In this document: positions 6,355 through 8,932 of the stretch, piece after piece
How the letters are laid out: each line of letters opens with the position of its first letter
Numbering within the stretch: the first letter of the stretch is position 1
DNA from: an uncultured Pelagibacteraceae bacterium
Lineage (GTDB): Bacteria; Pseudomonadota; Alphaproteobacteria; Pelagibacterales; Pelagibacteraceae
Reading direction: 5' to 3'
Assembly: GCA_902606105.1 (NCBI GenBank)
Contig: CACLFK010000008.1
Location: forward strand, 1 to 33,425
Length of the DNA stretch: 33,425 nt
The notes under the pieces: generated by a model
The model's input: only the letters and a program-made list of their open reading frames with translations
Databases searched by the model: none
What the model was told of the DNA's origin: nothing
Made by a program: the position numbers and the translations under genes

Positions 6355-7458
6355 ATGGATGACGTTGTAGTAATAGGTGGTGGTATAATTGGAGCAGCAA
6401 CAGCTTACTTTCTATCTAAAGAAGGTAGAAAAGTAAAAGTGATTGAAAGAGATCCTACCTATAAAACTGCTTCATTCCCACTATCTTTGGGCGGGTTTAG
6501 AAGACAATTTTTTCAAAAAGAAAATATTTTATTAGGAAAATTTGCTAGAGAATTTATTAATCAAATACCACAATTATTAAAAACTGAAAAAAATCCAAAC
6601 CCTACTGCTAGTATGGTAACAAATGGTTATTTACTAATGTTTGGACCTGAGCATGCTGAAGAACAATACAGAGCATTAGAAAATCACAAAAAGTGTGAAG
6701 CAGGAACAAAAAATATTAAAGGGTCAGAATTAACAAAAATATTTCCTTATATAAATAATGAGGGAATAGAAACTGCAACTTACACTGATAATCAAACGGA
6801 AGGATGGATTGATCCGTTTCTTTTTCACAGCGCTTTAAAAAGTAAAGCAATTGAGCTTGGTGCTGAATTTGTTAAAGGAGAAATTAAAAGTATTGAAGAT
6901 GTTAAGGCTAAAACAATTGTTTCTGCAGCAGGTTGTTGGACAAAAAAATTACTTGAAGATATTCCTGTTGTTCCTCAAAAACACACAGTTTTTAGGGTAA
7001 AATGTCCAACCTATATAAAAGAAATGCCTTTAAGTGGTGATTTAACAACAGGTGTTTATTGGCGACCAGAGGGTGGTGAATATTTAGCAGGATCACCTCT
7101 TTCAGTATTTGATGCAGAGGATTTAGAGCCAGCATGGAACGATTTTGAAGAATTAGTTTGGCCAGCATTAGCAAAAAGAATACCAGCTTTTGAGGAATTA
7201 AAATTAACAGGTGGGTGGGCTGGTTACTACGATTGCAATAAATTAGATAACAATGCAGTAGTTGGAAAACATCCAAAATATGAAAATGTATATATGGCAT
7301 CTGGTTTTACTGGTAGAGGTTTAATGCAAGCTCCTGGCGTTGGTAGAGCTTTAACAGAATTAATAACAACAGGATCTTATCAGACTATAGATATTAGTGA
7401 TTTTTCAGTTGAGAGAGTATTAGGTAATAGTGCAAGACATGAGCCTTATGTCCTTTAA
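6355..7458 (+). CDS. FAD-dependent oxidoreductase (DAO superfamily, FOXRED1-like)
   Basis: A 367-residue flavoprotein of the D-amino acid oxidase/sarcosine oxidase superfamily. VVVIGGGIIGAATAYFL gives the FAD-binding GxGxxG at residues 8-13, and the segment ERDPTYKTASFPLSLGG, followed by FRRQFFQKENI, resembles the human complex I assembly factor FOXRED1 and its bacterial relatives. The C-terminal flavin-contact region VYMASGFTGRGLMQAPGVGRA is intact. It lies 1 base after tspO and ends 3 bases from where the restored selO reading frame would end. The likely reaction is oxidation of a secondary or N-methylated amine such as sarcosine or dimethylglycine, or an assembly role; sequence alone does not decide. 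Confidence 0.82.
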   Translation: MDDVVVIGGGIIGAATAYFLSKEGRKVKVIERDPTYKTASFPLSLGGFRRQFFQKENILLGKFAREFINQIPQLLKTEKNPNPTASMVTNGYLLMFGPEHAEEQYRALENHKKCEAGTKNIKGSELTKIFPYINNEGIETATYTDNQTEGWIDPFLFHSALKSKAIELGAEFVKGEIKSIEDVKAKTIVSAAGCWTKKLLEDIPVVPQKHTVFRVKCPTYIKEMPLSGDLTTGVYWRPEGGEYLAGSPLSVFDAEDLEPAWNDFEELVWPALAKRIPAFEELKLTGGWAGYYDCNKLDNNAVVGKHPKYENVYMASGFTGRGLMQAPGVGRALTELITTGSYQTIDISDFSVERVLGNSARHEPYVL

Positions 7459-7461
7459 GTT

Positions 7462-7553
7462 CTATGTACCACAAAAGGTTTTATATTTTTCTTTGCCCAA
7501 AGGTGCAGGTGATTGGAATTCAGAAATATTTTTAATATCATAAGGATTTTTTT
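7462..7553 (-). pseudogene. selO: Out-of-frame 3' tail of selO after an A7 homopolymer
   Basis: Removing one A from the run of seven (plus-strand T 7547-7553) lets the selO frame continue through NPYDIKNISEF and PAPLGKEKYKTFCGT to a TAG at 7462-7464, 3 bases from the stop of the convergent flavoprotein gene. The NPYD motif and the Cys third from the end are what SelO proteins have at their C-terminus. The tail fills the otherwise empty gap between 7459 and 7537, which supports it being real gene sequence. It could be a sequencing or assembly indel, a true mutation, or a site corrected by polymerase slippage on A7. Confidence 0.85.
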
Positions 7554-8932
7554 AACACAGACAATAATTTGGTCATAATATCAAAATTGTTATTATTCGC
7601 AGCTAATAATGCTTCTTCAACTTTGTGATTTCTTGGAATTATATTTGGATTTACTTTCTGCATAAGTTGAAGTTGTTTTTCTTTAGTTGAATTATTTAAA
7701 GATGATCTTGCTTTCCAGCTATTTAGCCATTGATTAAAACTTTTGCCCGTATAAATTTTATCATTAATAGAAACCCCCATTAAGTAACAAAATGTATTTG
7801 TATAATCAGCTTTATTTTTTTCCATCCAATCCATTAAAGATTTGATTAAATTCTTATCATTCTTTTCTTCTCCAAATAAACCCAGCTTATCTCTCATCAT
7901 ACTCAACCATTTGTCTTCATAAATTTTCTGAAAATTGTCAATTATTTCAGATGCTATTTTAATTGCTTTATCCTCGTTTGTATCAATTATTGGAATCAGA
8001 CACTCAGCAAATCTTGCTAAGTTCCATTTAGCAATTGGTGGTTGATTTGAATATGAATATCTACCAAATTTATCTATTGAACTAAATACGGTTTTAGGAT
8101 CATAATGATCCATAAAAGCACAAGGACCATAATCTATTGTTTCTCCTGAGATAGTCATATTGTCTGTATTCATAACACCATGAATAAAACCAACTCTCAT
8201 CCAATCAACTATAAGATCACATTGTTTTTGTAAAACGAGATTTAATAAATCTAAAGCTTTATTTTGCGAAGATTTTAACTCGGCAAAATGTCGATTAATT
8301 GTATAATTAACTAACATTTTTAATTCTTCAACATTTTGTCTGGCTGCAATATATTGAAAAGTGCCAACTCTTATATGACTTGATGCTACCCTGGTTAAAA
8401 TTGCTCCTTGTAATAAATTTTCTCTGACAACTTTTTCACCTGTTTTGACTACAGCAAGACTTCTAGTTGTTTGAATATTTAAATAATGAATAGCTTCACT
8501 TATAATATATTCTCTTAGCATTGGCCCTAATGCAGCACGTCCATCACCACCTCTGGAGAACGAAGTTCTTCCGCAACCTTTGAATTGAATATCAAAACGA
8601 CTATTTTTATTTACTAAATGCTCACCTAATAAAATTGCTCTGCCATCACCCAACATAGTAAAATGACCAAACTGATGTCCTGCATATGCTTGTGCAATAG
8701 TGTTCGTATTATAAGGCAATGAATTCCCAGAAAAAATTTCAGCTAATTTTTTTTTATCTATCTTTGAAAAATCTAAATTTAACTTTTTAGCAAGTTCTTC
8801 ATTTAATACTACTAACTCAGGATCATGAACTGGTGTGGGTTTTATATTTTCTTTAAAAGTTTCAGGAAGCTTTGAATATGAATTATCAAAATTCCAATTG
8901 ATATAATTTTTCACAGGTTTATAAAGTTCCAA
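7538..8932 (-). CDS. selO: SelO (YdiU) pseudokinase-fold protein AMPylase, 3' end frameshifted
   Basis: SelO transfers AMP from ATP to Ser/Thr/Tyr of target proteins using an inverted kinase-like active site. This 464-residue ORF has the GGDGRAALGPMLREYI block and the metal/nucleotide residues N248 and D257 in HGVMNTDNM...DYGP, plus Cys261 in YGPCAFMD. The family normally ends with a conserved Cys a few residues from the C-terminus. Here the frame ends at KKSL, but the adjacent frame continues with NPYDIKN and ends in KTFCGT, so one extra A in the A7 run (T7 at 7547-7553 on the plus strand) shifts the frame. Corrected, the protein would be 489 residues, a normal SelO length. The start used is TTG at 8932, without a clear Shine-Dalgarno; GTG at 8914 is the alternative. 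Confidence 0.9.
   Translation of the reverse strand: MELYKPVKNYINWNFDNSYSKLPETFKENIKPTPVHDPELVVLNEELAKKLNLDFSKIDKKKLAEIFSGNSLPYNTNTIAQAYAGHQFGHFTMLGDGRAILLGEHLVNKNSRFDIQFKGCGRTSFSRGGDGRAALGPMLREYIISEAIHYLNIQTTRSLAVVKTGEKVVRENLLQGAILTRVASSHIRVGTFQYIAARQNVEELKMLVNYTINRHFAELKSSQNKALDLLNLVLQKQCDLIVDWMRVGFIHGVMNTDNMTISGETIDYGPCAFMDHYDPKTVFSSIDKFGRYSYSNQPPIAKWNLARFAECLIPIIDTNEDKAIKIASEIIDNFQKIYEDKWLSMMRDKLGLFGEEKNDKNLIKSLMDWMEKNKADYTNTFCYLMGVSINDKIYTGKSFNQWLNSWKARSSLNNSTKEKQLQLMQKVNPNIIPRNHKVEEALLAANNNNFDIMTKLLSVLKKSL

Follow-up and report, generated by a model that had tools for sequence, protein, structure and literature searches.

Is the selO gene of this uncultured member of the Pelagibacteraceae really cut short in the cell, was one nucleotide added on the way from cell to assembly, or does the break mark a slippage site from which the longer product is still made? 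The window, that is, the whole stretch of 33,425 nucleotides analysed here, is contig C8 of a 1.03 Mb assembly, which consists of 49 contigs and is 72.6% complete. The selO ORF lies on the minus strand (7538-8932). Counted from a TTG at 8932 it encodes 464 amino acids ending in SVLKKSL; a GTG at 8914 is a possible alternative in-frame start. Across the break the minus strand reads TTA AAA AAA TCC TTA TGA, the stop codon occupying 7540-7538. The frame is lost at a run of seven A (7553-7547, minus strand), in place of which the nearest relative has six. In another frame of the minus strand 28 codons followed by a stop (7548-7462) encode NPYDIKNISEFQSPAPLGKEKYKTFCGT, and 3 bp separate this stop from that of the convergent plus-strand gene (6355-7458, 367 amino acids), which we take, from inspection of its sequence alone, to be a FAD-dependent oxidoreductase. 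The run of seven A, the KKSL end and the continuation NPYDIKN...KTFCGT reaching 7462 had been pointed out in a preliminary description of the locus, and the minus-strand sequence bears out all three.

Owing to the one extra A, the SelO encoded in the window lacks its last 28 amino acids. The body of the protein belongs to the SelO family: it matches Pfam PF02696 with E=1.7e-112 over profile positions 3-464 of 466, and the ORF scores above the cut-off for the NCBIfam YdiU family protein. Over the body, the window copy and its group fall into the same family (PF02696) as the SelO/YdiU protein adenylyltransferases of E. coli (6k20, 6iii) and P. syringae (6eac), with AMPylation as the putative activity.

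The selO loci of relatives were compared; of 593 candidates the 80 best were kept. All of them belong to records of Pelagibacteraceae, Pelagibacterales or Candidatus Pelagibacter, which makes the window's genome one of SAR11, and the closest, AG-325-K09, has 88% protein identity. In 80 of these best 80 loci the reading frame runs into a tail that ends in CGT. Because of this agreement the displaced tail of the window is, judging by the sequences, not a chance reading. Some relatives (L013, L019) do have seven A at this place, followed there by CC and read in frame as Lys-Lys-Pro; in relatives with Asn at the break site the A run is shorter. Relatives with the same seven A and without the KTFCGT tail would have spoken against the preliminary description. 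They were looked for among the 80 loci, all of which keep the tail, and the attempted refutation failed.

In a second search the query was the intact SelO of the nearest relative, and 399 genomes of the genus were covered. It matched 212 genomes; the matches listed comprise 150 rows from 149 genomes, and 63 weaker matching genomes lie outside them and are uncounted. This set and the 80 loci overlap. All 148 other genomes among the matches listed reach the last residue of the query (489), and the window's genome ends at 462. An in-frame stop somewhere within the match was found in 5 of these 148 genomes; of the five, the one inspected (in G138, apparently locus L055) sits ahead of the start. 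Because the best 80 loci and the 148 other listed genomes keep the Cys tail, the break is private to this assembly among the relatives examined. An explanation by a programmed, conserved frameshift or by an alternative C-terminus with a function of its own has the A run itself in its favour and nothing more; with the break in 0 of 80 relatives' loci and in 0 of the 148 other genomes among the matches listed, we give this explanation hardly any credence.

The tail was then compared with that of the nearest relative. It differs by 4 nonsynonymous and 6 synonymous codon changes in 28 codons, the body by 45 nonsynonymous and 72 synonymous changes in 437. At least four nonsynonymous differences occur in 32% of 28-codon windows of the body, thus the tail resembles the nearest relative at about the level of the body. 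A branch test in which L055 served as outgroup gave, counted by codon, 10 nonsynonymous and 26 synonymous changes on the window branch and 7 and 21 on the sister branch; 53 differences could not be assigned. Relaxed selection on the selO body was considered and rejected, since the branch test shows none; the evidence is weak and mixed. In 210 near-invariant columns the window has 3 deviations, possibly including its shifted last residues; of the 81 sequences three have 3 deviations, the window included, and one has 4. The tail is intact and constrained, and neither tail nor body gives a sign of decay, from which it follows that the change in selO is either very recent or absent from the cell.

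If the seven A are real, some full-length SelO might be made by transcriptional slippage that drops one A or adds two, or by ribosomal slippage, as proposed for Blochmannia and Buchnera. The intact and constrained tail would suit such rescue, for which the available text of PMC3017870 gives a poly-A precedent in AT-rich symbionts, and ribosomes are known to shift on runs of A (PMC5009743, in the part accessible). The length of the run fits poorly. A transcriptional slippage site would be expected to have about nine A or T, slippage is described at runs of 9 (same part of PMC5009743), and the run here is 7. According to the accessible part of PMC5574713 slippage rises exponentially with run length, so that seven A is short, and most homopolymer slips in E. 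coli and Buchnera add nucleotides, while the frame here would need the loss of one A or the gain of two; the transcript study saw no frame-restoring error in either species. The ribosomal route leads to the wrong end: A_AAA_AAA does stand in the -1 phase, in accordance with the X_XXY_YYZ pattern, but the -1 frame ends in KPFVVHRT and the conserved tail needs a +1 shift. The site is also absent from all relatives seen. Like the poly-A frameshifts of Blochmannia and Buchnera, the selO break comes from an indel of one base within an A run, the frame being otherwise intact; unlike them it is unshared with the relatives examined, falls in a short run (7) of a free-living lineage and is known here from DNA alone. 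We consider rescue by slippage improbable. The preliminary description had listed it beside a sequencing indel and a recent inactivating change: the latter two share nearly all the probability, and product-restoring slippage is unsupported, as the site is missing from the relatives seen and the ribosomal slip leads to the wrong frame.

Frame splits in other genes bear on the choice between the two remaining explanations. Proteins of the nearest relative (G127) were compared with 801 kb of the window genome, in which 322 genes were testable. Three of the 322 were split between frames, and the reverse test in G127 gave 0 of 324. All three broken genes carry a one-A change within an A run. Beside selO they are an EutA/arylmalonate-decarboxylase-like gene (L128, near 3437; contig C15 of the window genome, G000) with one extra A and a family-3 solute-binding protein gene (L130, near 9674; contig C17 of the same genome) with one A missing; both are intact in the nearest relative, from whose copies the names were taken. 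In the sister assembly G138, of only 67% completeness, trmD (L198, near 3347; contig C3) has gained one A in an A run and is thereby split between frames; a second copy of the gene was looked for there and not found. Around the 80 selO loci there was one split beside 343 supported ORFs, an SDR-family oxidoreductase gene of a sister assembly (L004, near 5817), again at an A run. The selO gene is not special: the same kind of lesion occurs in unrelated genes of the window genome and of sister assemblies.

Four genomes were then compared (E<=1e-10), with 520 genes tested in the window genome, 444 in G127, 320 in G138 and 232 in G343. A single split was found across G127, G138 and G343, that of trmD in G138. 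The excess of breaks in the window genome (3/520 versus 1/996 in the three sister assemblies) was not significant, p=0.12, nor was it with the 80-locus set added to the controls (2/1340, p=0.14). The scan missed the break of selO, with its short tail; selO was added from the pairwise test, and equally short breaks in the controls would escape. Rows with internal stops numbered 17 in the pairwise test of the window genome and 10 in the reverse. Seven of these genes were inspected and turned out to be over-extended starts, last-residue differences or one spurious ORF. The four-genome comparison had 18 mid-gene stops (6, 3, 4 and 5 per genome), 14 of them in ORFs of at most 161 amino acids, and only the window ORF was inspected. 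The idea of an assembly full of indels was rejected: with 3 of 322 tested genes broken, all at A runs, the noise is low.

The reading that we prefer, tentatively and at just under an even chance, is a private slip of one A at the DNA level, slightly more likely technical than cellular. The extra A would have entered at a short A run, in this assembly only, and slightly more probably while the genome was amplified, sequenced or assembled than in the cell; the living population probably has an intact selO. The relatives and the contig pattern suggest that the assembly derives from a single cell. A common single-cell workflow, when benchmarked, gave 3.0 indels per 100 kbp as the mean over three cultures, according to the available parts of PMC6122165 and PMC8443664; this exceeds what was found here, 3 frame breaks over the 479 kb of coding sequence tested, the two counts being not like for like. 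The breaks resemble indel errors of single-amplified genomes in that they are private one-base indels of low rate, one of which, in a sister assembly, hits a gene that is generally essential; unlike the benchmarked errors, their technical origin is one that we infer from assembled sequence. TrmD is generally essential, and for this reason the trmD break in G138 is easiest read as an artefact. Other considerations stand against a technical origin. The average of 3.0 may overstate the error for a genome of SAR11 size, since in the accessible part of a benchmark (PMC5519541) mismatches and indels tended to be fewest in the SAGs of Prochlorococcus, whose genome is small. Rampant homopolymer error should break more of the 305 coding A runs of at least nine. 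The nearest relative has 0 of 324 genes broken, though the difference is not significant (p=0.12).

The other serious explanation is a real, very recent replication slip of +1 A in the sampled cell, of a lineage without MutS and MutL. The cell would have lost the SelO tail, the gene being dispensable to the genus, and the break would be a rare segregating allele. We rate this as somewhat short of an even chance. Domain families of MutS and MutL were matched in none of 31 genomes (the window's own, 18 of the same genus and 12 from another family within the order); 15 of the 31 are at least 90% complete, and controls were positive in 11 of 14. The lineage thus appears to lack mismatch repair by MutS/MutL, and the accessible part of PMC12374537 reports mutS and mutL missing in SAR11 subclades Ic and IIa.A. 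Dispensability is suggested by the patchy presence of selO in the genus (E<=1e-60 in 34 of the 57 genomes with a completeness of 90% or more), and three of the four other broken genes (EutA-like, solute-binding protein, SDR) would also seem dispensable by name. Natural indel rates above the methodological limit do occur in SAGs (PMC8443664, available part). Against a slip in the cell, no second cell with the break was seen among the relatives examined, the like break in trmD of G138 speaks for some of these indels being unreal, and technical error at the published level (the benchmark cited above, seen in part) could suffice. Published error of single-cell assemblies on the one side and loss of MutS/MutL on the other make technical error and real slippage both plausible.

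Substrate for slippage is abundant: 741 ORFs of at least 100 amino acids in the window genome, some of them perhaps not genes, contain 963 runs of seven A, 514 of eight and 305 of at least nine. In SAR11 without mismatch repair and with thousands of coding A runs, one-A slips might toggle dispensable genes such as selO across the population at a high rate, so that cells differ in their broken set, a diffuse phase variation; we regard this as a long shot. What had been seen at this locus was seen correctly; it looks like an ordinary, private one-base slip, which may be technical, and not like a new mechanism. Single-base breaks at A runs in SAR11 assemblies are by themselves no evidence of gene loss. 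With MutS/MutL lost and coding A runs abundant, the frameshift load per SAR11 cell would become measurable, if technical indels can be subtracted. A literature search found no paper joining SelO with Pelagibacter; on frameshifts or homopolymer indels in SAR11, none of the papers listed was on point, judged by title. A scan of viral contigs found no relative.

The missing tail carries a cysteine for which a role in redox control had been suggested. In SelO a Cys272-Cys476 disulfide is described as regulatory (PMC8097203, available part). Counted from the TTG, the window ORF has Cys at 120, 238, 271, 311 and 382 (six less from the GTG at 8914); position 261, proposed earlier for the internal partner, is not a Cys. 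The third-from-last residue of the relatives, a Cys as in E. coli SelO, is in the register of E. coli Cys476, judged from the 7 residues remaining on each side. The window frame lacks it, and all 81 other aligned sequences have it (80 of them distinct, P0001 and L002 being one gene). The redox suggestion stands as far as the lost Cys is in this register. Its other half fails: at the position of E. coli Cys272 all 82 aligned sequences, 81 of them distinct, have Phe, in an alignment ungapped around this position. Because of this Phe the described disulfide cannot, by the alignment, form as such in the SAR11 SelO group. Cys271 (in a DYGPC motif) is invariant in 82 of 82 and lies 12 residues upstream of the Phe; it could possibly be a substitute partner of the C-terminal Cys, and SAR11 may pair the redox cysteines of SelO differently. 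The group is thus unlike E. coli SelO in having Phe for Cys272 with an invariant Cys 12 residues upstream, and the window copy also in lacking the last 28 residues. The predicted structure of an intact relative SelO has a mean pLDDT of 77, with values below 50 at residues 250-284 and 484-489, so the model is unreliable in the regions of both Cys271 and the C-terminal Cys. Cys120 (window 8573-8575), in the motif KGSGRTS, is found in the window only; of the 82 sequences 80 have Ser and 1 has Thr at this position.
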